Assembly: GCF_007556705.1 (NCBI RefSeq)
Contig: NZ_VJOL01000029.1
Span: 1-35,671, forward strand
Length of the DNA stretch: 35,671 bases
From: Tepidimonas thermarum
Lineage (GTDB): Bacteria; Pseudomonadota; Gammaproteobacteria; Burkholderiales; Burkholderiaceae_C
Direction: 5' to 3'
Shown: positions 3,120 to 16,891 of the stretch, piece after piece
Position numbering within the stretch: the stretch's first letter is position 1
How the letters are laid out: each line of letters starts with the position of its first letter
The notes under the pieces: model-generated
What the model was told of the DNA's origin: nothing
What the model saw: the letters and a program-made list of their open reading frames with translations, nothing else
Database searches by the model: none
Program-made: the position numbers and the translations under genes

Positions 3120-5705
3120 TTAGGCGGAGACGGCCGCCGCCTCGGCGACGCGGCGAGCGATGTGCGCTAGGGCCTCGTCCACCTGATCGACCAGGATCAG
3201 GCACCAGTCGCCTGGCTGCAGCCGCTCGAGCGCCGCATCGATGGCCGCAAACTCGCCCCGGATGGCCGTGTGCCAGCGGGTCTTGGGCGCGCCTTGCAGC
3301 CCTTGCTCGAGCAGGGCAATGACCTCGCCGTCGGCACGGCCACGCTGGCAAGCGTCTTCGAACAGCACCGCCTCGTCAAATACGCGGCCGATGAGGCGGG
3401 TTTGCTCGACGATGTCCTGATCGCGCCGGTCGCCAGCCGCGCTGATGACCACCACCCGTTTACCCGCCGGCGTTGATTCGGCGGCTTGGCACAGCGCGGC
3501 AATCGCGTCGGGGTTGTGACCGTAGTCGGCCACCACGGTGGCGCCGCGATAGCTGAAGCGGTTGAAGCGTCCCGGCACCGTCGCGGCGTCGGCGGTGAAG
3601 GTTTCCAGCCCGCGCGCGATCGCTTCCCAGCTCACGCCCACGGCCCACGCGGCGGCAATGGCCGCCATGGCGTTGTCCACCTGAAAAGCGAGCCGGCCAC
3701 CGTCGGTGAGCGGAATACCCTCCAGCGGCAGACGTACCTGCCACCCCCCTTCGGCCGCGACGATGTGGCCATCTTCCACAAACACCACGCGCTTGCCCAA
3801 GGCGCGGTGGGTGGCGATGACAGGGTGGTGCGCCGCAGGCCCAAAGTAGGTGATCTGGCCCGGGCAAAAATCGGCCATGGCCACGCAGTGGGGGTCGGCG
3901 GCGTTGAGGACGGCCGTGCCGCCCGGCGCCACGTTCTGGACGACGACGCGTTTGAGGACGCTCAGATCCTCGATCGTGGTGATGTAGTTCAGGCCAAGGT
4001 GGTCGCCAGAGCCGATGTTGGTGACGACCGCGACCTGACTGCGGTCGAATGCCAGCCCCTCGCGCAAAATTCCCCCGCGCGCGGTCTCCAGCACCGCCGC
4101 ATCCACGTCCGGGTGCGCAAGCACGCGCCGGGCGCTGCGCGGGCCACTGCAGTCGCCACTGTCGATTTGGCGGCCATTGACGTACACGCCGTTGGTGTCG
4201 GTAAAGCCGACACGCCAGCCGTGTTGGCGCAGCAGGTGTGCCGTCAGCCGCACCGTGGTGGTTTTGCCGTTGGTGCCGGTGACGGCGATGAGCGGGATGC
4301 GCCCGTCCTCGCCCGGCGCAAACATGTGGTCGATGATTGCCTCGCCGACGTTGCGGCCTTTGCCAAACGATGGGCTCAAGTGCATGCGCAGGCCCGGCGC
4401 GGCGTTGACTTCGACGATACCGCCGTTTTGCACCTCCAGCGGCTCGACCACGTTCTGGCACACGACATCGACGCCACACACGTCCAACCCAACGGTGACG
4501 GCCGCGGCAATGGCACGTTGGGCCACCAGGGGATGCACCTCGTCGGTCACATCGGTGGCCGTGCCGCCGGTGGAGAGGTTGGCGTTGTTGCGCAGCACCA
4601 CCCGCATGCCCAGCGGTGGCACGTCGTCGGGGGTCAGGCCTTGCTGGGCCAGGCGGTCGATGGCGATCTCGTCGAGCCGGATGCGCGTCAACGGTGTCGC
4701 ATGACCGTCACCGCGGCGCGGATCGGCGTTGACCGCTTCGACCAGCTGGCGCACGGTGTGCACACCATCGCCGACGACCAGTGGCGGATCGCGCCGTGCT
4801 GCCGCCACCAGTTTGCGCCCCACCACCAGCAGCCGAAAGTCGATGCCCGGCAAATAGCGCTCGACCAGAACCTCGCTGCTGTAGCGGCAGGCCACCTCGT
4901 ACGCCGCCACGACCTGCTCGCGCGTTTGGATGTTGACCGTCACGCCCTTGCCCTGGTGGCCGTCGCGCGGCTTGACGACGACCGGCGTACCGATGGCCTG
5001 CGCGGCACGCCACGCGTCCTCCGCATCGGTGACCGGGCGTCCGAGCGGCACCGGCACTCCAGCCGTATGCAGCAGCTTTTTGGTCAGCTCCTTGTCTTGG
5101 GCGATGTCTTCGGCGATGGCGCTGGTGGTGTCGCACTCCGCGGCCTGGATACGGCGCTGTTTGCTGCCCCAGCCAAACTGCACCAGGCTGCCGGACGTCA
5201 GACGGCGGTAGGGAATGCCGCGTGCCACGGCGGCCTCGACGATGGCACCGGTCGAGGGGCCAAGGCGCAGGTCTTCGTCCAGCTCCCGCAATCGGTTGAT
5301 GGCCGCTGCCGTGTCGTACGGTTGATCGTCCCGAGCGGCTTGCAGCAGCGCCAGCGCCTCGTCGAATGCCAAGCGGCCCACTTCCTCGACCGTGTACTCG
5401 ACCACGACCTGGAACACCCCGGGCTCCGGGGCTGCGATGGTGCGGCTAAAGCTCACCGGGCAACCGGCGTGGGTCTGCAGCGCCAAGGCCGTGATCTCCA
5501 GCGCATGGGCCATCGAGACGACGCCGCTGGCCGTGGGTTCGGGCAGCATGCCCAGCTCTGGAAAGCGTTGCCGCAACCGCACATCGAAGCCCGGCAGACG
5601 GTGCAAATCCAGCTCCTGCGGTGCGCACTGCACCGTCGCTTCGATGGCGGTGTAGCGGCTCCAGAGGTTGGGGCCCCGCAAGGCCCTCAGTCGAGTGACG
5701 TTCAT
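3120..5705 (-). CDS. cphA: Cyanophycin synthetase CphA
   Basis: CphA makes cyanophycin, a polymer with a poly-aspartate backbone and arginine (sometimes lysine) side chains, by ATP-driven addition of Asp and then Arg; the product accumulates as cytoplasmic granules. The 861 residues fit the usual length. The N domain begins with the family signature LRALRGPNLWS. An ATP-grasp domain (about residues 165-475) has the lysine and glycine-rich loop VVVKPRDGHQGKGV and the EVNAAPG metal-site segment. A Mur-ligase-like domain follows, with an intact P-loop VTGTNGKTTT near residue 480 and the C-terminal Mur domain containing VVADYGHNPDAIAAL. All catalytic parts look intact. It lies 21 bp downstream of cphA' on the same strand and is probably co-transcribed with it. 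No cyanophycinase gene is present in the window. Confidence 0.96.
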   Translation of the reverse strand: MNVTRLRALRGPNLWSRYTAIEATVQCAPQELDLHRLPGFDVRLRQRFPELGMLPEPTASGVVSMAHALEITALALQTHAGCPVSFSRTIAAPEPGVFQVVVEYTVEEVGRLAFDEALALLQAARDDQPYDTAAAINRLRELDEDLRLGPSTGAIVEAAVARGIPYRRLTSGSLVQFGWGSKQRRIQAAECDTTSAIAEDIAQDKELTKKLLHTAGVPVPLGRPVTDAEDAWRAAQAIGTPVVVKPRDGHQGKGVTVNIQTREQVVAAYEVACRYSSEVLVERYLPGIDFRLLVVGRKLVAAARRDPPLVVGDGVHTVRQLVEAVNADPRRGDGHATPLTRIRLDEIAIDRLAQQGLTPDDVPPLGMRVVLRNNANLSTGGTATDVTDEVHPLVAQRAIAAAVTVGLDVCGVDVVCQNVVEPLEVQNGGIVEVNAAPGLRMHLSPSFGKGRNVGEAIIDHMFAPGEDGRIPLIAVTGTNGKTTTVRLTAHLLRQHGWRVGFTDTNGVYVNGRQIDSGDCSGPRSARRVLAHPDVDAAVLETARGGILREGLAFDRSQVAVVTNIGSGDHLGLNYITTIEDLSVLKRVVVQNVAPGGTAVLNAADPHCVAMADFCPGQITYFGPAAHHPVIATHRALGKRVVFVEDGHIVAAEGGWQVRLPLEGIPLTDGGRLAFQVDNAMAAIAAAWAVGVSWEAIARGLETFTADAATVPGRFNRFSYRGATVVADYGHNPDAIAALCQAAESTPAGKRVVVISAAGDRRDQDIVEQTRLIGRVFDEAVLFEDACQRGRADGEVIALLEQGLQGAPKTRWHTAIRGEFAAIDAALERLQPGDWCLILVDQVDEALAHIARRVAEAAAVSA

Positions 5706-5726: not shown

Positions 5727-7898
5727 TCAGCGATCGGACAGCAGGGGCGCCGCGGTTTCGATGCCGGCGCGAACCAGGTCCACGGGCAATCCAAGCGCCA
5801 CCGCGGCGCCCAGCGTGGCCAACAGCGTTGGCCGCCCGATGCGGGCCAGCACGGCCTGCACGCCGGTGTGTTCCAGATCCAGGATGGGGGTGGTGCCGCT
5901 GGCACGGACGAGCACCACTTGCGCGCCATCGATGGTCAGAAAGCGCCGGCCGTCGGTCACGTGCGCCTCACGCGAGGTGTGGCGCGGGTCGGCGCTGTAG
6001 AGCAGCACATCGCCGTCGCACAACTCGGCCAGCCCTGCGCAGACGTCGCAGTCGGCGTTGAGCACGGCGCAGCCGTTGGGCAGCACCACGTCCACCTGCG
6101 TGCGCAGCACCTTGCGCATGTGGTCGCGGGTGGTGATGTAGTGATCTTCCAAACCCTGCGGCTCGGGCACATCGGTGACGATGCCCACCAGGCAACGGTC
6201 GTAGGACAGGCCTTCGTCCAGGATGCTGCGCGGTGAGCTCTCGATCACCGCCGCATCGACGCAGCGGTTCATGAGGATGCGCTGCCCGGCCTCCCAGTCC
6301 GACGGGACGCTGGTGTCGATGGGCTGCATCTGCAGGTACAGGCGCCCCCCGCTCGAGACGCCGACCGTGTGCCCGGCGCGCTGCAGCAGCGCCCCCAGCA
6401 GCACGGCGATGGCTGCGGTCTCGCGCGTGCCCGTGATGCCGACGACGGGGATGCGGCCATCGTCTTCCCCCGGGAAGAGGTGCGCGACGATCGCCTCGCC
6501 AACGGGGCGCGGCTGGCCGCGCGCCGGCTTGAGGTGGGGCAGCAGACCCGGACCGGCGTTGACCTCGACGATGGCACCGCCCTGGGCCGCCATGGGCTGG
6601 CCGATGTCTTCCACCACCAAATCGATGCCAGCGATGTCCAGGCCGACCACGCGCGCCGCCAAGGCGGCCAGCTCGGCCACATCCGGGTGCACTTCATCGG
6701 TGACATCGTCGGTGAGCAACCCGGTGCGCTGCACCAGCACCACCCGTCCGGCCTCGGGCACGCTGTCGGGCTCCAGGCCCTGACGGCGCAGCTCCAGCAT
6801 CACGTCGCGGTTTTCGGGCAAGCGGATGGTGTCGAGCGGGAATTCCTCTTCCTCCCCGCGCCGCGGATCGCTGTTGATGTCGCGCTCGATCAACGCACGC
6901 ACCGTGTGCACACCGTCGCCCACCACCGTCGCGTGTTCACCGCGGGCGGCGGCGACCATGCGGCCGCCGATCACCAGCACCCGATGTTCACGGCCACGGA
7001 TGTAGCGCTCCACCATCACCTCCGAGCCTTCACGCTCGGCCAACTCGTAGGCAATGGCCACTTCCGCTTCGGTGCGCACATCCAGCGACACCCCGCGCGC
7101 GTGGTTGGCATCGACCGGTTTGACGACCACGGGCAAGCCGATTTCCTGCGCCGCCGCCCAGGCATCCTCCGCGCTGCTGACCACCCGCCCCTGCGGCACC
7201 GGAACGCCGCACTCTTCGAGCAGGCGCTTGGTCAGGTCTTTGTCGCGCGAGATGTTTTCGGCGATGGCGCTGGTACGGTCGGTCTCGGCGGTCCAAATGC
7301 GGCGTTGCGCTGCCCCGTAGCCGAGTTGCACCAGGTTCCCATCCGTCAGCCGGATGTGCGGAATGCGCCGCGCGGTGGCCGCATCGACGATGGCTGCCGT
7401 GCTGGGCCCCAGCGCGTGGCGGTCGATGAGCCCCTTGAGCCGCTTGATCGCCGCGCCGACGTCGTACGCGCGGCCTTCGATAGCGGCCATCAGCAAATCG
7501 CGCGCATCGAGCAGCGCCTGCCGCGCGACTTCTTCCTGCCGCGCGCGAATGACCAGCTTGTACACGCCGCGCGCGTCGGTCGAGCGGGTTTGCCCGAAAC
7601 TGGTGGCCATGCCCGCGCAGTTGAGCAGCTCAATGGCCACGTGTTCCATGATGTGCCCGGGCCAGGTGCCTTCGCGCAGGCGCTGCAAAAAACCCCCGCG
7701 TTCACCGACGCCGCAATGGTGCTCCACCAGCCCCGGCAGCCACGCCGTGAGGCGCTCATACAAGCCGGGGATGGTGTTGGAGGGGTGGTCCTCGAGCTCG
7801 CCGATGTCGATCACGGCCTCGATCGCGGCCCGGTAGGTCCAGAGGTTGGGCCCGCGCAAATGGCGCATGCGCAGGATCCGAATGGTCTTGTGCGACAT
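5727..7898 (-). CDS. cphA': Shortened cyanophycin synthetase homologue CphA' (CphA2-like)
   Basis: This 723-residue paralogue of the adjacent CphA starts with ILRMRHLRGPNLW and retains the N and ATP-grasp domains, but three features differ. Near residue 490 the Mur-type P-loop reads GITGTRETAAIA where CphA has GTNGKTTT, so the Lys needed for ATP binding is gone. The protein ends before the C-terminal Mur-ligase domain that occupies the last ~130 residues of CphA. The ATP-grasp loop reads KPVDANHARGV, with Ala replacing both of the first two glycines of the loop. Cyanobacterial CphA2 also lacks the C-terminal part and polymerises beta-Asp-Arg dipeptides with one ATP-grasp site, so a similar role is a reasonable inference. 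A regulatory or inactive subunit is the alternative. The ATG at 7898 was chosen because it keeps the conserved N-terminal strand; an internal ATG at 7868 is possible. Confidence 0.9.
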   Translation of the reverse strand: MSHKTIRILRMRHLRGPNLWTYRAAIEAVIDIGELEDHPSNTIPGLYERLTAWLPGLVEHHCGVGERGGFLQRLREGTWPGHIMEHVAIELLNCAGMATSFGQTRSTDARGVYKLVIRARQEEVARQALLDARDLLMAAIEGRAYDVGAAIKRLKGLIDRHALGPSTAAIVDAATARRIPHIRLTDGNLVQLGYGAAQRRIWTAETDRTSAIAENISRDKDLTKRLLEECGVPVPQGRVVSSAEDAWAAAQEIGLPVVVKPVDANHARGVSLDVRTEAEVAIAYELAEREGSEVMVERYIRGREHRVLVIGGRMVAAARGEHATVVGDGVHTVRALIERDINSDPRRGEEEEFPLDTIRLPENRDVMLELRRQGLEPDSVPEAGRVVLVQRTGLLTDDVTDEVHPDVAELAALAARVVGLDIAGIDLVVEDIGQPMAAQGGAIVEVNAGPGLLPHLKPARGQPRPVGEAIVAHLFPGEDDGRIPVVGITGTRETAAIAVLLGALLQRAGHTVGVSSGGRLYLQMQPIDTSVPSDWEAGQRILMNRCVDAAVIESSPRSILDEGLSYDRCLVGIVTDVPEPQGLEDHYITTRDHMRKVLRTQVDVVLPNGCAVLNADCDVCAGLAELCDGDVLLYSADPRHTSREAHVTDGRRFLTIDGAQVVLVRASGTTPILDLEHTGVQAVLARIGRPTLLATLGAAVALGLPVDLVRAGIETAAPLLSDR

Positions 7899-8028
7899 GA
7901 ATAGAGGCGTAAGGGCAGTCGTAGAATCCAGCGCTCGCACGCCGCCGTCGTGCGTGGGCTGCGCTGAGCGCCTATTGTCATCTCCTGGGTCTGGGCGCGG
8001 TGGCTCGGGCTGCCAAAAATTTTGCAAC
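7899..8028. promoter_or_regulatory. Shared divergent upstream region of cphA' and the ABC transporter gene
   Basis: This 130 bp region must carry the start signals for the cphA'-cphA operon (leftward) and the ABC transporter/DUF1854 pair (rightward). On plus, a good -10-like TAGAAT lies near 7924-7929 and a second -10-like TATTGT near 7973-7978, but neither has a clear -35. An AT-rich block (8015-8028) lies directly before the ABC start. Joint control of the two transcripts is an inference from the layout. Confidence 0.5.
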
Positions 8029-10314
8029 ATGTCGTATCCGCCTCCATCGTCCCCCGCTTGGGCGGGGCTGCCAACGGCCTGGCACGGTGCGGTGGCCGCC
8101 GCGGGCGCGGACAGCGCCGATGCGGCGGCCGTTTGGCTGATCACCGACCTCGACACGCAGCTGCGTTTTCGGGAGAGCCTGCTGTGGATTGCCGGGCGCC
8201 GGCTGTGGTGGGCGGCCGCGCCCGACGCCACGGCACAGTCGTGGTCGATTGAGCCGGGTTTGGCGCTGTGGGTGAGCGACCACAACGGCGTGGCCGCACT
8301 GGAGCTGGTGCAGCTAGCCCACGACGGCACGCCGGTCAAACGCCTGGCCGTGTGGCGCTACACGCTGGGGCGCCAGGTGGCAGCGCGGCGGCTGATCGAG
8401 CGCTTTGAGAGCCTGCGCGACGCCGGTGGTACCGATGCGCCGCCGCCGCAAGCCGCGACACGGCAATGCCCCCTGTGCCATGCGCCGATGGAGCCCGACG
8501 ACGAGGAATGCGCCACCTGTGCCCAGGTGGTGCACACCCCGCCGTCGACGTTGACGCTGTTGCGCCTGTGGCGCTTTGCCCGGCCCTACCGTTGGCAACT
8601 GCTGGCGGGTTTTTTGTTGACGCTGGCGTCCACAGCGGCCACCCTGGTGCCGCCGTATTTGACGATCCCGTTGATGGACGACGTGCTCATTCCCTACCAG
8701 AGCGGGCAGCCCATCGACGTGGCGCGGGTGGCCGCGTTGTTGGGCGGGCTGCTGGCAGCCGCCTTGCTCGCCTGGGGCCTGGGTTGGGCCAAAACCTACA
8801 TCCTGGCGCTGGTGTCCGAGCGCATCGGCGCCGATTTGCGCACCACCACCTACGAGCACCTGCTGGGGCTGTCGCTGGAGTACTTCGGCAACCGCCGCAC
8901 CGGCGACTTGATGGCGCGCATCGGGTCCGAAACCGACCGCATCAACATCTTTTTGTCGCTGCACCTGCTGGACTTTGCCACCGACGTGCTCATGATCGTG
9001 ATGACGTCGGTGATCCTGTTTTCCATCAGCCCCACGCTGGCGCTGGCCACGCTGCTGCCGCTGCCGCTGATCGGCTGGCTCATCCACGTCGTGCGCGACC
9101 GGCTGCGCACCGGCTTCGAAAAAATCGACCGTGTCTGGGCCGAGGTCACGAGCGTGCTGGCCGACACCATCCCCGGCATCCGCGTGGTCAAGGCCTTTGC
9201 GCAGGAAGGGCGCGAGGCGCAGCGCTTTCGCGAGGCCAACCGGCACAACCTGGAGGTCAACGACCGGCTCAACCGGCTGTGGTCGCTGTTTTCGCCCACG
9301 GTGTCGCTGCTGACCGAAATCGGCCTGCTGGTGGTTTGGGGGTTTGGCATTTGGCTGGTGGCACGCGGCTCGGTCACGGTGGGGGTGCTCACCGCGTTTC
9401 TGGCCTACATCGGGCGCTTCTACACCCGCCTGGACTCGATGAGCCGCATCGTCTCGGTCACGCAAAAAGCGGCCGCGGGCGCCAAGCGGATCTTTGACAT
9501 CCTGGACCACAAAAGCAGCGTGCCCGAGCCGGCGCAGCCGGTGCCGCTGCCGACGGTGCAGGGCCACATCGCGTTGCGTGGTGTGACCTTTCGCTACGGC
9601 AACCGCACCGTGATCCAAGACCTGGACCTGGACGTGCGGCCCGGTGAGATGATTGGTCTGGTGGGCCACAGCGGCTCGGGCAAGAGCACCCTGGTCAACC
9701 TAATCTGCCGCTTCTACGACGTGGTCGAGGGTCAGATTCTGGTCGACGGTGTGGACATCCGTCAGTTGCGCGTGGCCGACTACCGGCGCCACATCGGCCT
9801 GGTGCTGCAGGAGCCGTTTTTGTTCTTTGGCACCATCGCCGAAAACATCGCCTACGGCAAGCCGGATGCAACGCGCGAGGAGATCATCGCCGCCGCGCGC
9901 GCCGCGCACGCACACGACTTCATTTTGCGCTTGCCGCAAGGCTACGACTCGTTGGTGGGGGAGCGGGGGCAGGGCCTGTCGGGCGGCGAGCGCCAGCGCA
10001 TCAGCATCGCCCGCGCCCTGCTCATCAACCCGCGCATCCTGATCCTGGACGAGGCCACCTCCAGCGTGGACACCGAAACCGAAAAGGAAATCCAAAAAGC
10101 GCTGGACAACCTGGTGCGCGGGCGCACCACGATCGCCATCGCGCACCGCCTGTCCACGCTGCGCCGCGCCGACCGGCTGGTGGTCATGGACAAAGGCCGC
10201 AAGGTGGAAGAGGGCAGCCACGACGCGCTGATGGCGCGCCAGGGTGCCTACTGGCGGCTGTACCAGGCACAGGCCCGACAGGCCGAAGCCGAGCGCCACA
10301 TGCTGGAGGATTGA
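8029..10314 (+). CDS. Cyanophycin-associated ABC transporter (fused exporter type) with N-terminal zinc ribbon
   Basis: The 761 residues fall into three parts. An unusual N-terminal domain (about 1-140) is followed by a four-cysteine knuckle, C147-x2-C150 and C161-x2-C164, that should bind zinc. A membrane domain with several hydrophobic helices spans about 180-480. A nucleotide-binding domain has Walker A GHSGSGKST (546-554), signature LSGGE (650-654), Walker B ILILDE ending at Asp674-Glu675, and switch His706. This is the MsbA-like half-transporter plan, working as a dimer, and all ATPase motifs are intact. I recall close relatives being annotated as cyanophycin metabolism-associated ABC transporters; the substrate is unknown. 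The gene is divergent from cphA' and is followed 4 bp later by the DUF1854 gene. The start at 8029 was preferred because the frame upstream reaches back into cphA' with no family-like sequence. Confidence 0.9.
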   Translation: MSYPPPSSPAWAGLPTAWHGAVAAAGADSADAAAVWLITDLDTQLRFRESLLWIAGRRLWWAAAPDATAQSWSIEPGLALWVSDHNGVAALELVQLAHDGTPVKRLAVWRYTLGRQVAARRLIERFESLRDAGGTDAPPPQAATRQCPLCHAPMEPDDEECATCAQVVHTPPSTLTLLRLWRFARPYRWQLLAGFLLTLASTAATLVPPYLTIPLMDDVLIPYQSGQPIDVARVAALLGGLLAAALLAWGLGWAKTYILALVSERIGADLRTTTYEHLLGLSLEYFGNRRTGDLMARIGSETDRINIFLSLHLLDFATDVLMIVMTSVILFSISPTLALATLLPLPLIGWLIHVVRDRLRTGFEKIDRVWAEVTSVLADTIPGIRVVKAFAQEGREAQRFREANRHNLEVNDRLNRLWSLFSPTVSLLTEIGLLVVWGFGIWLVARGSVTVGVLTAFLAYIGRFYTRLDSMSRIVSVTQKAAAGAKRIFDILDHKSSVPEPAQPVPLPTVQGHIALRGVTFRYGNRTVIQDLDLDVRPGEMIGLVGHSGSGKSTLVNLICRFYDVVEGQILVDGVDIRQLRVADYRRHIGLVLQEPFLFFGTIAENIAYGKPDATREEIIAAARAAHAHDFILRLPQGYDSLVGERGQGLSGGERQRISIARALLINPRILILDEATSSVDTETEKEIQKALDNLVRGRTTIAIAHRLSTLRRADRLVVMDKGRKVEEGSHDALMARQGAYWRLYQAQARQAEAERHMLED

Positions 10315-10318
10315 CACC

Positions 10319-10816
10319 ATGACGACAGCGACCGATGCCGCACCGACAGACAGCGGCCAGCCCGTGCTGCGCCGCAACGCCTGTGGCCGCCTGGAGTGGC
10401 GCCGCCCCGACGGCGCATGGATCAGCGGCGTGGTACCCGTGCGCGCCTTTCCGATTCAGGCGCCCGAGCGGCACATCTCGCTCGTCGGACCCGACGGGCA
10501 CGAAGTGGCCACCATCGACGCGTTGGCGTCGCTGCCCCCCCCGGCGCGGGCACTCATCGAAGAGGCGCTGCGCGAACGCGAGTTCACCCCGGTGATTCAA
10601 CGCCTGTTGGAGGTGAGCTCGTTTGCCACCCCGAGCACGTGGACGGTGGAAACCGACCGGGGCGTGACCCGCTTCGTCCTCAAAGGCGAGGAGGACATCC
10701 GCCGCCTGACGCGCGACGTGCTGCTGATCCAGGACGCGCACGGGGTGCAGTACCTGATTCGCCAGCCGCGCGACCTGGACCGGCACAGCCGGCGCTTGCT
10801 CGATCGGTTTTTGTGA
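10319..10816 (+). CDS. DUF1854 protein, cyanophycin-associated
   Basis: This 165-residue soluble protein has no signal peptide or membrane segment. The sequence (LRRNACGRLEWRRPDGAWISGVVPVRAFPI, then LIQDAHGVQYLI near the end) matches my memory of the DUF1854 family, members of which are annotated as cyanophycin metabolism-associated when beside cphA genes. No catalytic motif is apparent. It starts 4 bp after the stop of the ABC transporter, which implies co-translation and probably a shared function, for example as an accessory subunit or regulator of the transporter. That role is inference; the biochemical activity of the family is not known to me. Confidence 0.8.
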   Translation: MTTATDAAPTDSGQPVLRRNACGRLEWRRPDGAWISGVVPVRAFPIQAPERHISLVGPDGHEVATIDALASLPPPARALIEEALREREFTPVIQRLLEVSSFATPSTWTVETDRGVTRFVLKGEEDIRRLTRDVLLIQDAHGVQYLIRQPRDLDRHSRRLLDRFL

Positions 10817-10861: not shown

Positions 10862-11638
10862 TTACTTCAGGTTTCCACTGAGGAATTGCTGCAACCGCTC
10901 GCTGCGCGGCGCGGTCAGCACCTGCTTGGGATCGCCCTGTTCTTCGATGCGGCCCTGGTGCAAAAAGACGACGTGGTTGGAGACTTCGCGCGCAAAGCCC
11001 ATCTCGTGCGTGACCACGACCATGGTGCGATGCTCCTCGGCCAAGCCCTGCATCACGCGCAGCACCTCGATGACCAGCTCGGGGTCGAGCGCGCTGGTCG
11101 GCTCGTCGAACAGCATGACCTCGGGCTCGACGGCCAGCGCGCGCGCGATGGCCACGCGCTGCTGCTGCCCCCCGCTCATGTGCGCGGGGTAGCGGTCTTC
11201 CACGCCCTTGAGGCCGACGCGCTCCAGGTATTTGCGCGCCGTGGCCACGGCCTGGTCGCGCGGGACTTTGAGCACATGCACCGGCACTTCGATGATGTTT
11301 TGCAGCACCGTCATGTGCGCCCAGAGATTGAAGTTCTGGAACACCATGGCCAGCTTGGTGCGCAGGCGCTGCAACTGGGCGGGATCGGCCGCGTGCAGCT
11401 CGCCGTCGGCGGCGGGCTTGAGCCGCAGCTCCTCATTGGCCACGACGATACGGCCGGCGTGGGGCTTTTCCAGCAAGTTGATGCAGCGCAAAAACGTGCT
11501 CTTGCCAGAGCCCGAGCTACCAATGATGCTGATCACGTCGCCGGCACGGGCGGTGAGCGACACCCCTTTGAGCACCTCGTGCGTGCCGTAGCGCTTGTGG
11601 ATGTCCTCGACTTGGAGTTTGATGGGGGCGTTGCTCAT
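10862..11638 (-). CDS. hisP: Basic amino acid ABC importer, ATPase HisP
   Basis: This 258-residue ATPase energises uptake through the HisQ-HisM membrane pair. It is very close to enterobacterial HisP over its whole length: the start ([23 protein letters not shown]), Walker [10 protein letters not shown], the Q-loop region [15 protein letters not shown], signature LSGGQQQR with one change to MSGGQQQR, Walker [15 protein letters not shown], and the switch region [10 protein letters not shown] are all present. It is the last gene of the minus-strand operon hisJ-hisQ-hisM-(M14-like)-hisP, separated from the M14-like gene by 31 bp. Expected substrates are histidine, arginine, lysine and ornithine, by analogy only. 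Confidence 0.95.
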
Positions 11639-11669
11639 GGTGTCAAGACAAAGAGGCCGCGCGGACCGG

Positions 11670-12800
11670 TCATTCGGACAGCAGGTTGCCGTGGCGAAAC
11701 GCCTGCTCGCCCGCCACTTTGGCCACCACCAGCCCGGCCGGGGCGTAGCGTTCGCGCACGCGGGCGTACAACACGCCACCGTGCTCGGTGCGCAGCTCCA
11801 CGGTGTGTCCCAAGGTCGGCTCGATGATCTGGGCCACGGCCTCACCCGGCTGCAGCCGCTGTCCCACCTGTGCCACGAACACCAACACGCCCGGACGGTG
11901 CGCGCGGATGGGTTCGGAGCCCGCCAGTGGGGTGGGGGCGCAGGCCGCGGGCGGCATGGGGCCGGGGTCCCCCGCCACCACGCCCAGGTGCTGCCAGTAG
12001 CGCCAGATGCCGTCGGCGTCACGTTCGGCCCAGGCGTGGCCGACGTCGGCTTCACCGCGCAGCTCGACCGTGGCGCTGGCGCAAGCCTGGGGCAGCGGGG
12101 CCTCGATCCCGGCCTGGCGCAGGCGGCGCGCAAGCTGCGACCACAACCCCGACAGCTGCTCATCGAACGGCTGTCCGCCGGCCCCGTAGTCCGCCACCAA
12201 AACGGTTTGCGCCCCCAGCCAGCGGGCCAGGGGTTGCAACGCGGGCCAGCAAGCCGTCTCACTGTACAGGTGCAGCACGGCTTCGGCGTCGCAGTGCAAA
12301 TCGAGCACGACGTCGGCATCGGCGGCCAGCCGGAACAAGGCCAGCCGCAACCCCTCGAGCTCGGTGACCGGTTGCTGCTCAGCCAACCAGTCGCACACGG
12401 CTTGGCGCACGCACCGCACGTTGGCCTCGGCATCCGGTCCCAAGGCATGGGCCACGCGCTCAAACGCAGCGGCGGCCAAATCGGGGTAGCCGCGATTGAA
12501 ATTTTCCGAGGTGTTGAGCTCGAAGCGCCCCAGCGGCCGGTGGTCGATGCGCTGCGCCAGCCCGATCGGGTTGGCCACGGGCACCAGCACGACTTCGCCA
12601 CGGATGGCGCCGGCCGCCTCGGCCTGCACGAGCCGCTGGCGCAGATGGTGGGCGACCAGCATCCCGGGCAGCTCATCGGCGTGCAAACTGGCCTGCACAT
12701 AGACCTTGGGCCGTGCGCCGGCCACACCAAAATGCAGGCTGGTGACGGTGCGGGCGCTGCCCAAACTGGCGCAGGGTAGGGGGTGGTGTTGGATGTCCAT
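11670..12800 (-). CDS. Succinylglutamate desuccinylase/aspartoacylase-family zinc hydrolase
   Basis: This 376-residue protein belongs to the M14-like AstE/AspA group, zinc enzymes that remove acyl groups from N-acyl amino acids. The first two zinc ligands are seen in H40-A-D-E43 and the third in LDLHC (His169). A C-terminal biotinyl-like beta domain is suggested by [16 protein letters not shown] and the following Gly-rich segment. It starts directly at the end of hisM, with no gap, and precedes hisP, so it is embedded in a basic amino acid importer operon. This suggests it acts on an acylated form of a transported amino acid. The true substrate cannot be read from sequence; the full AST arginine-catabolic cluster, of which AstE is part, is absent here, so astE is not assigned. 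Confidence 0.85.
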
Positions 12801-13514
12801 TTAGCGACGGCGCGGCGCCAGATGGGCCAGGAAGCGGCGCTCGGCCAGCTTGAACAGCCCCACCAGCAAGAACGTGATGCACAGGTAGATGGCCCCGGCG
12901 AACAGGTACGCCTCAAACGGCAGGTAGAAGTCCGAATAGACGCGGCTGGCCGCGGCGGTCAGATCCAGCATGGCCGGGACCGTGCTGGCCAGGCTGGTGC
13001 TGTGCAGCATCATGACCACCTCGTTGCTGTAGGCGGGCAGGGTGCGGCGCAAGGCGCTGGGCATGACGATGCGCCACAGCACCTGGCGGGGGGACATGCC
13101 CATGGCGCGTGCCGCCTCGATTTCACCGTGCGACGTCTCGCGGATGGCGCCCGCCAGCATTTCCGCGGTGTAGCCCGCCGTGTTCAGGGCAAACGCCAGC
13201 AGCGCGCAAAAAAACGCTTCCTTGAACCAGGTCCACGGCCAGATGTCGTCCCAGCGCGCCTGGATCCAATCCAGCTGCGCAATCCCGTAGTAGATCAGAT
13301 AGACCTGAATCAACAGCGGGGTGCCGCGGATGACATAGGTGTAGCTGCCCACCAGCCAGCGCAGCCAGGTATGACGGCTGTTGAGCGCCAGCGCCATGAA
13401 CAGGGCCAGCACCCCACCCACCAGCAGCGACGACAGCAGCAGCTTGAGCGTGGTCACCAGCCCTTCGGCATACAGCTGCAGCTGGGCAGGCTCGAAAATG
13501 ACAGACCAGTTCAC
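12801..13514 (-). CDS. hisM: Basic amino acid ABC importer, permease HisM
   Basis: This 237-residue inner-membrane protein has about five hydrophobic helices and the cytoplasmic coupling loop [22 protein letters not shown], which carries the EAA motif of importer permeases. [19 protein letters not shown] and [18 protein letters not shown] closely resemble E. coli HisM. It forms the translocation channel with HisQ. The gene follows hisQ with an 18 bp gap and ends exactly where the M14-like gene begins, consistent with one transcript and coupled translation. Confidence 0.93.
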
Positions 13515-13532
13515 GGTGACAACCCGCCCCCA

Positions 13533-14228
13533 TCAGCCCTGCCACGACGTGGCGCGCCGCACCCCAAGGCTAAAGCGCGCATCGAGCCGGCGCAGCGCCC
13601 ACAACGACACGGATGTGTAGATCAGGAACAGCGCGCCCACGAACAGGAAAAAGAAAAACGGCTCGCGTGTGGCAGCAGAGGCCTGTTTGGCGAGAAAGGT
13701 CATGTCCTTGAGGCCAATGAGGCTGACCAATGCCGTGCTCTTGATGAGCACGAGCCAGTTGTTGGTAAAGCCGGGCAGGGCGTAGCGCACCATTTGCGGC
13801 AGCGTGATGCGCACAAAGGTCTGCAGCCGACCCATGCCAAACGCCCAGGCGGCTTCCATTTGTCCGCGCGGGATGGCCAAGATCGCGCCGCGAAACGTCT
13901 CGGTCATGTAGGCGCCGTAGATGAACCCAATGGTGAGCACGCCCGCAAAAAACGGGTTGATATCGACCGGTTCGGCGCGCCCAAGCGAATCCAACAGCGC
14001 ATTGAGGCCGATCGTGCCGCCGTAGAACACGAGCAGCATCAGCACCAGCTCGGGCACGCCGCGCACCACGGTGGTGTAGAGCGTGGCCAGCGCCACCAGC
14101 GGGCGCCGCCCCGAGAGCTTGGCCGTTGCCCCGAGCAGGCCGAGCACGATCGAGACGGCCAGCGACAGCAGCGACACCGCCACCGTCAGCAGCGCCCCCA
14201 GGAGGATCCCAGGAATGTAGTCCAGCAT
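13533..14228 (-). CDS. hisQ: Basic amino acid ABC importer, permease HisQ
   Basis: The 231 residues form a second His-type permease. TTVVRGVPELVLMLLVFYGG, GFIYGAYMTETFRGAILAIPRGQMEAAWAFGM and RYALPGFTNNWLVLIKSTALVSLIGL closely track E. coli HisQ, including the EAA loop. Five or so membrane helices are expected. The gene lies 59 bp after the binding-protein gene hisJ, and the gap holds a strong intrinsic terminator, so hisQ and downstream genes are probably transcribed less than hisJ through partial read-through. The start ATG at 14228 has no obvious ribosome binding site. Confidence 0.93.
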   Translation of the reverse strand: MLDYIPGILLGALLTVAVSLLSLAVSIVLGLLGATAKLSGRRPLVALATLYTTVVRGVPELVLMLLVFYGGTIGLNALLDSLGRAEPVDINPFFAGVLTIGFIYGAYMTETFRGAILAIPRGQMEAAWAFGMGRLQTFVRITLPQMVRYALPGFTNNWLVLIKSTALVSLIGLKDMTFLAKQASAATREPFFFFLFVGALFLIYTSVSLWALRRLDARFSLGVRRATSWQG

Positions 14229-14237
14229 GTACCAATG

Positions 14238-14276
14238 AAAAACGCGTCGCGCCGGCAGCCACCGGCAGGCGACGCG
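14238..14276 (-). terminator. Intrinsic terminator between hisJ and hisQ
   Basis: On the minus strand, GC-rich arms at 14276-14269 and 14250-14243 (GCGACGCG type, 8 bp perfect) enclose a second inner pairing (CCGGC/GCCGG), and the stem is followed at once by TTTTT (14242-14238). This is a textbook intrinsic terminator. Sitting after the binding-protein gene and before the permease genes, it would keep the binding protein in excess, as is common in ABC importer operons. Confidence 0.8.
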
Positions 14277-14287
14277 CCGTTCACCCG

Positions 14288-15067
14288 TCAGTTACCGTAG
14301 GGGTCGAAGTCGAAGTATTTCTTCGCGATCTTGTCGTAGGTGCCGTCGCTGCGGATGGCTTTGATGGCCGCGTTGATGTCGGCCTTGAGCTTGTCCTGGC
14401 CCTTGCGCATGCCCACCCCGACGCCGTAGCCAAAGTACTTCACGTCGTAGAGGTCGGGGCCCACGAAGCCGTAGCCCTTGCCTTCGGGCTTGCGCAAGAA
14501 GCCGCCGGTCACTTCCACCTTGTCGGCCACGGTGCCGTCCAGCCGGCCGGCCTTGATGTCGAGGTAGACCTGGTCCTGCGCCTCGTACGGGATGACCTGC
14601 ACGCCGGCGGGCTTGAGCTCGCCCATGGCGTATTTCTCTTGCGTGCTGCCCTTGAGAACACCGATTTTTTTACCCTTGAGCGACGCCGGGCCGCTGTAGG
14701 GCGTGCCTTCTTTGACCACGATGCCGCTGGGGGTCTTGTAGTACTTGTCGCTGAAGTCGATGACCTTTTTGCGGTCGTCGGTGATCGACATCGAGCTGAT
14801 GATCACATCGTACTTGCGTGCCTGCAGGCCGGGAATCATGCTGTCCCACACCTGTTCGACGTAGACGCACTTGCGGTTGAGCTTGGCGCAGATGGCTTCG
14901 GCGATATCGACGTCGAAGCCGGTCGGCTTGCCATCGGGGGTTTTGTAGGTAAACGGCTCGTACGTCGCGTCGATGGCGACCTTGAGTTCGTTGTTCTGAG
15001 CCTGCACGGCACCCGCGCCGACGACGGCGGCGAGCCCGATGGCCTGAAGGATGTGACGACGCTTCAT
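14288..15067 (-). CDS. hisJ: Periplasmic binding protein for basic amino acids (HisJ/ArgT-like)
   Basis: This 259-residue secreted protein has an N-terminal signal peptide (MKRRHILQAIGLAAVVGAGAVQAQ), probably cut after Ala-Gln-type residues near 22-24. The mature part starts LKVAIDATYEPFTYKTPDGKPTGFDVDIAEAIC, the hallmark of polar amino acid binding proteins (SBP_bac_3 family). The Cys pair near VCAKLNRKCVYVEQ-like residues (AICAKLNRKC) matches the disulfide of HisJ/LAO proteins. It delivers His, Arg, Lys or Ornithine to HisQMP; which ligand is preferred cannot be told. The gene heads the minus-strand operon, with a candidate promoter near 15216-15243 and a terminator just after its stop. Confidence 0.92.
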   Translation of the reverse strand: MKRRHILQAIGLAAVVGAGAVQAQNNELKVAIDATYEPFTYKTPDGKPTGFDVDIAEAICAKLNRKCVYVEQVWDSMIPGLQARKYDVIISSMSITDDRKKVIDFSDKYYKTPSGIVVKEGTPYSGPASLKGKKIGVLKGSTQEKYAMGELKPAGVQVIPYEAQDQVYLDIKAGRLDGTVADKVEVTGGFLRKPEGKGYGFVGPDLYDVKYFGYGVGVGMRKGQDKLKADINAAIKAIRSDGTYDKIAKKYFDFDPYGN

Positions 15068-15368: not shown

Positions 15369-16040
15369 TCACCACTGCCCACGCGGCTGGCGCGCGCGAA
15401 TCGCGCTGGCGATGACGTCCACCAGGCCGTCGCGGCCAACCTGGCGGGCAAAGTCGATGGCGTCCAGCCCCTGTTCGTTGCGCAGCGTGGGGTCGGCACC
15501 TTCCTCAAGCAACAGGCGCACCACCTCCTCACGTCCATAACGCGCCGCCATCATCAGCGGCGTGGTGCGGTTGGGCGACTCGGCGTCGATGTAGGCGTAA
15601 TGCTCGAGCAACAAACGGGTGATGGCCGCAGCCTGGTCGCCTTTGTTGGTGGCGGCGTAATGCAGCGCGGTCCACCCGGGCCGGTTGACTTGGGCGCCGC
15701 GGGCCAGCAGGCGCTCCACCACGTCGCGGTGATTGCGCAAGGCCGCGATCATCAACGCGGTCTCGCCGACGGCGTTGCGCGCCTCGACATCGACGTCGCG
15801 CTGCTCGACCAAATAGCGCGCGACGGCCAGCGCGTCGCGCTGCAGCGCGAGCACCAGCGCCGGGTTGAGGTCGGGATCGGGGGTGTTGAGGTCAAAGCCG
15901 CGCGCGTGCAGCTGGCGCACGGTGGCTGCGTCATCGCGCACCACGGCGGTGATGAATTGCTCGTAGGAGCGCTGCGCCCAGGCGGAGCTGGAAACGACGA
16001 TAAACAAAACGCTGACAATGAGTTGTAAGATCTTTTTCAT
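15369..16040 (-). CDS. Exported ankyrin-repeat protein
   Basis: The 223-residue protein starts with a classical signal peptide (MKKILQLIVSVLFIVVSSSAWA) and then shows about five ankyrin repeats, recognisable by GETALMIAALRNHRDVVERLLARGAQVN, GWTALHYAATNKGDQAAAITRLLLEH and TPLMMAARYGREEVVRLLLEEGADPTLRNEQG. It is probably a periplasmic protein-binding adaptor; the partner is unknown. Its ATG overlaps the tatD stop (ATGA, 4 bp), so it belongs to the mltG-tatD transcript and is probably translationally coupled. I chose this ATG rather than a longer frame because the signal peptide starts here and the overlap is typical of this operon. Confidence 0.9.
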   Translation of the reverse strand: MKKILQLIVSVLFIVVSSSAWAQRSYEQFITAVVRDDAATVRQLHARGFDLNTPDPDLNPALVLALQRDALAVARYLVEQRDVDVEARNAVGETALMIAALRNHRDVVERLLARGAQVNRPGWTALHYAATNKGDQAAAITRLLLEHYAYIDAESPNRTTPLMMAARYGREEVVRLLLEEGADPTLRNEQGLDAIDFARQVGRDGLVDVIASAIRARQPRGQW

Positions 16041-16891
16041 GTCAAGCTTGAAGTCACAGAAGGCGCGCACGCACGGGCGGCACGGGTGAACAGACGGTCG
16101 AAATTGGCGCTGGTGGCCTCGGCCACGGCCTCGACGGACAGGCCTTTGAGCTCGGCCAATTGCGCGGCCACATACGGCACCCACGCGGGTGTGTTGGTTT
16201 TGCCGCGATGCGGCACCGGGGCCAAATAGGGGCTGTCGGTTTCGATCAGGCAGCGGTCCAGCGGCACGAAGCGTGCCACCTCGCGCAAATCGGTGGCATT
16301 TTTGAACGTCAATATGCCCGAAAACGAAATGTCAAAACCCAAGTCGAGGGCGGCGCGCGCCACCTCACGCGTTTCCGTGAAGCAGTGAAACACGCCCCGC
16401 GCGGGCGGACCACCCCCGTCGGTGCGGCTGGTGCAACCGCCCTCCTCGCGCAAAATGGCCAGGGTGTCCTCCGACGCGGCCCGGGTGTGGATGATCAGCG
16501 GCAAGTCCGTCTGGCGCGCGGCGCGGATGTGGACGCGGAAGCGCTCGCGTTGCCAGGCCATGTCGGCAACCGACCGTTCGCCCAAGCGGTAGTAATCGAG
16601 CCCCGTCTCGCCGATGCCCACGACACGCGGCAGTGCCGCGCGCTCGACGAGATCGGCCAACATGGGCTCGCGCACCCCTTCGTTGTCCGGGTGCACGCCG
16701 ACCGTGGCCCACAGCTCGGGGTCGCCCGTCGCGGCGTCGAGTGCCAGCCGGTGCACGGCGTCGAAGCCTTCGAGCGTCGTGCAAATGCACAGCGCGCGGT
16801 GCACGCGCGCCGCGCGCATGGCGGCCAGCACGTCCGGGTACATGGCCTGGAGTTCCGGAAAATCCAAGTGGCAGTGCGAATCGGTAAACAT
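16037..16891 (-). CDS. tatD: TatD-family metal-dependent hydrolase
   Basis: This 284-residue TIM-barrel hydrolase has the whole TatD metal site: FTDSHCHLDF (HxH), GIGETGLDYYR (Glu), IHTRAA (His), FHCFTET (His) and ETDSPYLAP (Asp). TatD proteins act as 3'-5' exonucleases or deoxyribonucleases, though cellular roles vary. A Gly-rich insertion (EEGGCTSRTDGGGPPARG) precedes the FHCF motif and is longer than in E. coli. It follows pilZ by 64 bp and overlaps the ankyrin gene by 4 bp. The ATG at 16891 gives the standard N-terminus MFTDSHCH. Confidence 0.93.
   Translation of the reverse strand: MFTDSHCHLDFPELQAMYPDVLAAMRAARVHRALCICTTLEGFDAVHRLALDAATGDPELWATVGVHPDNEGVREPMLADLVERAALPRVVGIGETGLDYYRLGERSVADMAWQRERFRVHIRAARQTDLPLIIHTRAASEDTLAILREEGGCTSRTDGGGPPARGVFHCFTETREVARAALDLGFDISFSGILTFKNATDLREVARFVPLDRCLIETDSPYLAPVPHRGKTNTPAWVPYVAAQLAELKGLSVEAVAEATSANFDRLFTRAARACAPSVTSSLT

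Follow-up and report, generated by a model that had tools for sequence, protein, structure and literature searches.

The window analysed here is a 35,671 bp stretch of Tepidimonas thermarum DNA (contig NZ_VJOL01000029.1, positions 1 to 35,671) with a cyanophycin (cph) locus of four genes: cphA, its truncated paralogue cphA', and a divergent pair that encodes an ATP-binding cassette (ABC) protein and a small DUF1854 protein. Our evidence strongly supports the ABC/DUF1854 pair as part of the cph cassette, and what is new is the finding that presence of the pair identifies the cphA systems without a cytoplasmic-type cyanophycinase. The cphA gene (3120..5705, minus strand) encodes an 861 amino acid (aa) cyanophycin synthetase (TIGR02068, 972.7 bits against a cut-off of 850) with intact Mur-ligase motifs and no endo-cyanophycinase motif in its N domain. 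The 723 aa product of cphA' (5727..7898, minus strand) matches NF010623 at 951.4 bits and TIGR02068 at 672.2 bits, the latter below the cut-off; it is without the Mur P-loop and the C-terminal lobe and retains, by pattern match, the Cx19HxxEH motif (C62, H82, E85 and H86; 7641..7715, minus strand), an N-domain primer-making site as in CphA1. A 130 bp region (7899..8028) separates the start codons of cphA' and the ABC gene, and consensus matching found no sigma-70-type promoter and no terminator in it. The ABC gene (8029..10314, plus strand) encodes a 761 aa exporter half-transporter, and the DUF1854 gene (10319..10816, plus strand) a 165 aa protein.

A first-pass annotation of the window had described genes for a fused exporter-type ABC protein and a DUF1854 protein, divergent from a synthetase operon, and both genes are indeed intact and in that order. 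Its ABC start near 7899 is less likely than 8029: the in-frame ATG there overlaps the cphA' start, and the relative L084 opens with MSYP, as does the window protein from the ATG at 8029. The 4 bp spacing it had placed between the pair and the synthetase operon in fact separates the ABC gene (TGA at 10312-10314) from the DUF1854 gene (ATG at 10319). The same annotation named this the best candidate for an undescribed system, which holds for function and not for name. The ABC protein matches NF052233, "cyanophycin metabolism-associated ABC transporter", over nearly its full length (profile 15-752 of 766; 1363.3 bits against 880), and its partner matches NF052234, "cyanophycin metabolism-associated DUF1854 family protein" (223.6 bits against 150), as well as PF08909 (172.9 bits against 26.8). 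Both are clear members of these families over curated cut-offs, with no difference found, so the cyanophycin association is already catalogued in NCBIfam, whose entries give a name and an association and not a function. A passage of PMC10687191 also reports a similar cluster, with two cphA genes, an unclassified ATP-binding ABC transporter and no cphB, and full-text searches of one literature library turned up no paper recognised as assigning a function to the pair.

The cph cassette and its distribution

Relatives were collected by a DUF1854 scan of a genome collection, from which the best 80 loci of at least 585 relatives were taken; betaproteobacterial genera (placed from general knowledge) appear in many of their titles, other titles are unspecific and one gives Moraxellaceae. 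In 79 of the 80, cphA' is found on the same stretch as the pair, so the pair's position beside that gene is not due to chance; the exception is a 3-kb contig that holds the pair alone. In 63 loci cphA-cphA' is divergent from ABC-DUF1854, as in the window, in 12 the genes are co-directional in the order ABC-DUF1854-cphA'-cphA, and 4 are interrupted by contig ends with cphA' still visible. No fifth gene recurs widely in the flanks among the 25 largest clusters, of which the largest reach 13 of 80 loci and are led by Achromobacter, and the next outside that group 9 of 80 (pairs at least 95% identical were left out of this clustering).

Co-occurrence was counted in 250 genomes of the order (Burkholderiales; one draw, the same set for every family). 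DUF1854 and the ABC protein each exceed their cut-offs in 85 genomes, and these are the identical 85. TIGR02068 exceeds its cut-off in 89, of which 82 also have the pair (Fisher p 2e-53, kinship disregarded); each of the three remaining pair-bearing genomes has cphA' or a cphA fragment instead of a full cphA. The link to cyanophycin drawn in the first-pass annotation, which had named wide occurrence of the pair without any cphA as its refutation, is thus strongly supported: a cphA-family gene is present in all 85 pair-bearing genomes. Kinship was handled by genus-level concordance and by counting families only. Within six genera of mixed pair presence all 31 genomes are concordant, 16 with cphA and the pair and 15 with neither (a further genus, with two cphA fragments, was left out of this count). 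In three genomes the pair is kept although it is unlinked from cphA on the same contig, by 0.77 Mb in one and 0.35 Mb in another. That the two genes are mere passengers of a mobile cph cassette, with no working link to cyanophycin, is very improbable: they stay when unlinked and are kept in both gene orders, no cluster among the 25 largest of the flanks reaches most genera (no search was aimed at transposases), and a PLSDB search with the DUF1854 protein gave no plasmid match at E 1e-3.

A phylum-wide draw of 299 genomes has DUF1854 in 16, of which 15 are in this order; the single genome outside it, G428, is a metagenome-assembled genome (MAG) with 8% contamination. A Sulfolobus control exceeds the PF08909 cut-off and falls below that of NF052234, so the domain also occurs in archaea.

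The two synthetase-like proteins of the cassette divide the motifs of one CphA1. The N domain of many CphA1 proteins has an endo-cyanophycinase site, Cx19HxxEH, which makes primers, as described in a section of PMC9262961. Among the rows from the 80 loci that passed length filters, window included, Cx19HxxEH is found in 77 of 77 CphA' and the strict Mur P-loop, GDHL and DYGHNP motifs in none, and the P-loop is found in 74 of 74 CphA and Cx19HxxEH in none (one has a bare HxxEH). A more diverse set, which overlaps the first in organisms and is not independent of it, has Cx19HxxEH in 39 of 39 CphA' and 0 of 37 cassette CphA, and a P-loop by pattern in 35 of the 37 CphA. With looser patterns 4 of its 39 CphA' have a P-loop-like stretch, 2 a GDH motif and none YGHNP, which rules out a strictly universal loss of the CphA' Mur site. 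In their motifs, then, the two proteins are complementary: the putative cutting site is found in CphA', and the Mur-ligase site, intact in CphA, has for the most part been lost from CphA'. We note that some longer CphA' proteins (816-883 aa) keep parts of the Mur site (L022:4623-7070, L035:4944-7664, L052:5493-8108 and L082:4324-7137) and may be intermediates of this loss.

In a tree of 37 rows the CphA and CphA' clades are each fully supported, and the CphA type linked to cyanophycinase stands apart. The single CphA of G428, which has Cx19HxxEH, groups with the CphA' side (support 97/85, midpoint root) on a short branch. At its locus (L078, on G428:C9) this unsplit CphA is divergent from an ABC gene, whose product is 59% identical, and a DUF1854 gene, an arrangement that could represent the cassette at an early stage, or else contamination. 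The one paper that a full-text search retrieved for HxxEH together with cyanophycin was PMC9262961, in whose main text Cupriavidus, Ralstonia and betaproteobacteria do not appear.

Cyanophycinase in genomes with and without the pair

The near-absence of a recognisable cyanophycinase from betaproteobacteria is a puzzle already known. PMC5178258 states, in the part that deals with it, that synthetases are present and that cyanophycinase was found neither in 2002 (cited work) nor in 2016 (its own searches), and a table of PMC10206079 gives a recognisable cyanophycinase in 2.8% of 903 betaproteobacterial CphA1 genomes and in 70-100% of those in its other groups. We searched the same 250 genomes with the TIGR02069 profile, which would miss cyanophycinases of other families, and 18 have a match over the cut-off. 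All seven scored cphA genomes of the order without the pair have a cyanophycinase (233-251 bits); six of the seven are from one genus, and one was counted as a cphA genome with its cphA below the cut-off. Outside the order, four of four cphA genomes without DUF1854 (their lack of the pair rests on the DUF1854 search and not on the ABC protein) have a cyanophycinase adjoining cphA (231-278 bits), and G428, with cphA and the pair, has no match. The cyanophycinases of these eleven genomes, which represent six families, have no signal-like stretch ahead of the fold, as judged, here and below, by hydropathy and by eye.

Six of the 85 pair-bearing genomes hold TIGR02069 matches over the cut-off, seven proteins in all, and six of the seven have a signal-peptide-like N-terminus, among them one of the two in genome G056. 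The seventh, also in G056, has no such stretch and adjoins a second cphA pair of another type. A cytoplasmic-type cyanophycinase is thus present in 11 of 11 cphA genomes that lack the pair and in 1 of 86 that have it (Fisher p 1e-13, with kinship not taken into account). The pair-negative group does not include two genomes that have no cyanophycinase: G122, whose contig ends inside a 569-bit ABC match, and G136, which is 79% complete and has a cphA match (E 3.8e-173) and no pair; with both counted the figure is 11 of 13. The exclusion agrees with the counts of PMC10206079 and the statement in PMC5178258, and the extracellular cyanophycinases that a passage of the review PMC8560796 names in Nitrosomonas and Ralstonia fit the signal-bearing ones of pair-bearing genomes. 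Since G428 has the pair with a single unsplit CphA and without cyanophycinase, the pair appears to follow the lack of cyanophycinase more closely than the CphA/CphA' split, as suggested by this one MAG.

Compared with classical CphA1 plus CphB storage, the window has a synthetase of the same family, and it differs in that the synthetase motifs are split over CphA and CphA', in the added ABC-DUF1854 pair, and in a genome without a cytoplasmic-type cyanophycinase, the sole TIGR02069 match being signal-bearing. This match (G000:C58:8646-9392, locus L060; 236 bits) starts with a twin-arginine-like signal and adjoins a gene that by eye resembles hemL, which places a putatively exported enzyme alongside a putative exporter. 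Two other observations concern the enzyme. Five genomes of the order have a cyanophycinase over the cut-off without a cphA over the cut-off and are perhaps scavengers, and the second locus of G056 (L061, G056:C1:5333000-5347500), in a genome that also bears the cassette, holds two CphA and the signal-less cyanophycinase.

The ABC and DUF1854 proteins

Pfam places a membrane domain (PF00664, aa 191-464) and an ATPase domain (PF00005, aa 530-678) in the ABC protein, which is thus a fused half-transporter; the former domain extends over about aa 176-500 (8554..9528) and the latter over about aa 512-745 (9562..10263). The first-pass annotation was right that all ATPase motifs are intact, since Walker A (GHSGSGKS, aa 546-553), the Q-loop, the signature (LSGGERQR), Walker B (ILILDE), the D-loop and the H-switch were all found. 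A membrane domain and complete ATPase motifs are the general marks of an ABC exporter, and from them transport itself is predicted. The protein resembles MsbA-type exporters in these respects and differs from them in its additional PH-like N-terminal domain, zinc ribbon and family-fixed charged membrane residues, and in being accompanied by DUF1854 in every genome that has it (85 of 85). The lipid A subfamily model of MsbA (TIGR02203) is the best general model after its own family, which would suit a flippase for lipid or another envelope component merely co-regulated with cyanophycin. Such a role is quite unlikely, as the score, 472.3 bits, is below the cut-off of 602, 35 of 40 pair-bearing genomes examined also have an MsbA over that cut-off, and co-occurrence with cph genes, even unlinked ones, is not expected of a general flippase.

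The N-terminal 184 residues were modelled by AlphaFold2 (mean pLDDT 87.4) as seven strands and a C-terminal helix. Among the 50 matches listed by Foldseek against the PDB, 49 are PH, PTB or FERM proteins by title or by general knowledge, assigned per protein and not per matched domain, with probabilities mostly of 0.9-1.0, moderate TM scores and a best E of 1.6e-3, none being at or below 0.001; the Pfam PH family does not match this region. The domain (aa 35-131; 8131..8421) is therefore PH-like as modelled. It is followed by a zinc-ribbon-like CPLC...CATC sequence pattern (aa 147-164; 8467..8520), the CxxC...CxxC form of which is present in 70 of 77 relatives, with weak Pfam zinc-ribbon matches below the cut-off. 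PCAT and HlyB also begin with a cytoplasmic domain, a peptidase or C39-like one, which precedes the membrane domain in the same place as the PH-like domain of the window protein. The latter differs in that its N-domain model is PH-like and not C39, with no Pfam match to C39 peptidase anywhere in the protein, and in that its alignments to the HlyB and bacteriocin-exporter models begin only at aa 172-192.

Over 105 sequences the mean identity is 79% in the membrane domain, 82% in the ATPase domain and 43% in the PH-like domain. For 39 ABC proteins of the pair the membrane and ATPase identities are 77% and 80%, against 43% and 63% for 29 MsbA orthologues drawn for the most part from those genomes (29 of 30 MsbA loci were used). 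When protein pairs are matched at an ATPase identity of 0.70-0.75, the membrane domain stands at 0.70 against 0.56 for MsbA (62 and 24 pairs), and at 0.75-0.80 the gap almost closes, so that the excess conservation over MsbA is smaller than it looks from the raw figures. A large number of positions in the membrane domain, among them charged and aromatic residues, do not vary within the family and differ from those of 18 other exporters (this comparison excluded eleven Achromobacter loci and short ABC rows); the charged residues fixed here and rare in the 18 are E264, R265, H312, D315, H353, R356, E430, R467, D469 and R473. The alignment of relatives used 61 of 77 available rows, mostly near-identical ones being dropped.

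The DUF1854 protein has a beta-rich model (pLDDT 84.8), and no solved relative was found for it by sequence (best E 0.3) or by structure (best listed probability 0.44). Pfam reportedly notes the domain at the C-terminus of some ABC proteins. Two candidate identities were rejected. DUF1854 is unlikely to be the missing hydrolase, as 65 aligned sequences (64 of 80 available rows, mostly near-identical ones dropped) show no His or Cys that is invariant or nearly so, and one nearly invariant Ser, S157; a kinship with the N-terminal domain of the ABC protein has a profile comparison probability of 7.6%.

Possible functions of the pair

The interpretation that we favour, and hold tentatively, is that the ABC and DUF1854 proteins form a dedicated exporter of cyanophycin chains, or of oligomers cut by CphA', in a system without intracellular recycling; we infer its assembly, substrate and direction and the cutting activity of CphA'. 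CphA would elongate the chain, endo-cleavage by CphA' would generate fresh chain ends or short soluble pieces, and the pair would move the chains or oligomers out of the cytoplasm. The ABC protein would probably act as a homodimer whose PH-like domain and zinc ribbon serve, on the cytoplasmic side, for docking or recognition. That the membrane domain is under constraint, the ATPase complete, the small partner always present and the extra domain of a docking type points to a transporter dedicated to a single substrate of fixed chemistry. For a cassette expected to produce beta-Asp-Arg chains, with a site for cutting them and no enzyme to recycle them in the cytoplasm, export would be the simplest account.

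Several points weigh against export of chains. In its mature form cyanophycin consists of long, insoluble chains, which would be difficult cargo for an MsbA-type exporter, and no periplasmic or outer-membrane partner family recurs widely in the flanks among the 25 largest clusters. At a matched ATPase identity of 0.75-0.80 the membrane-domain figure is barely higher than for MsbA, 0.748 against 0.726 (326 pairs and only 4), and four more pair-bearing genomes have cyanophycinase-like matches below the cut-off, which may or may not carry an export signal. Bordetella is a betaproteobacterium; a passage of the review PMC8560796 lists it among cyanophycin organisms and places intracellular cyanophycinases in any accumulating bacterium. 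A statement in PMC9239080 describes cyanophycin in Nitrosospira as stored inside the cell, on the basis of gene content only. The exclusion with cyanophycinase could also reflect another route of intracellular degradation.

An intracellular role in granule assembly or turnover is the main rival. At the membrane, the PH-like domain and DUF1854 would bind either the polymer or the synthetases, and ATP-driven remodelling, together with the cutting site of CphA', would replace mobilisation by cyanophycinase. The same exclusion and the constant Cx19HxxEH of CphA' in both overlapping sets fit this; a membrane domain nearly as constrained as the ATPase favours a translocation path instead, the PH-like domain is far less conserved, and DUF1854, with S157 its lone nearly invariant candidate, does not resemble a Ser-His or cysteine hydrolase. 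We regard this role as rather unlikely.

The pair might, in place of chains, export arginine, aspartate or beta-Asp-Arg dipeptides as overflow or for cross-feeding. Converging on the DUF1854 gene is an amino-acid importer of the lysine/arginine/ornithine-histidine type (10865-15067, minus strand), with HisP-, HisM- and HisQ-like proteins and a binding protein over the TIGR01096 cut-off, and an importer-permease-like family, judged by eye, is found in the flanks of 5 of the 80 loci. The other 75 are without that family by the flank test, and 85 of 86 pair-bearing genomes are without a cytoplasmic-type cyanophycinase to make dipeptides. Export of such small products is distinctly improbable, and the dipeptide option raised in the first-pass annotation is disfavoured because the usual dipeptide-making cytoplasmic enzyme is missing where the pair is present. 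We note that an AstE/AspA-like protein is encoded with the importer genes (11670-12800), and that a 271 aa ankyrin-repeat protein lies beyond them (15369-16184, minus strand).

To return to export of chains or oligomers, it is conceivable, with a good deal of doubt, that betaproteobacteria have a second cyanophycin biology, in which a split synthetase feeds a PH-domain ABC exporter with a DUF1854 subunit and the product is exported, as matrix, surface material or shared nitrogen, and not kept as an intracellular store; this would explain the missing cytoplasmic cyanophycinase there. The pair marks the betaproteobacterial cyanophycinase gap and reduces that puzzle to a direct test on two genes. 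Should the pair indeed export cyanophycin, then bacteria now taken to store nitrogen may secrete it, which would be of relevance to nitrogen recovery in activated sludge and to secreted production of the polymer.

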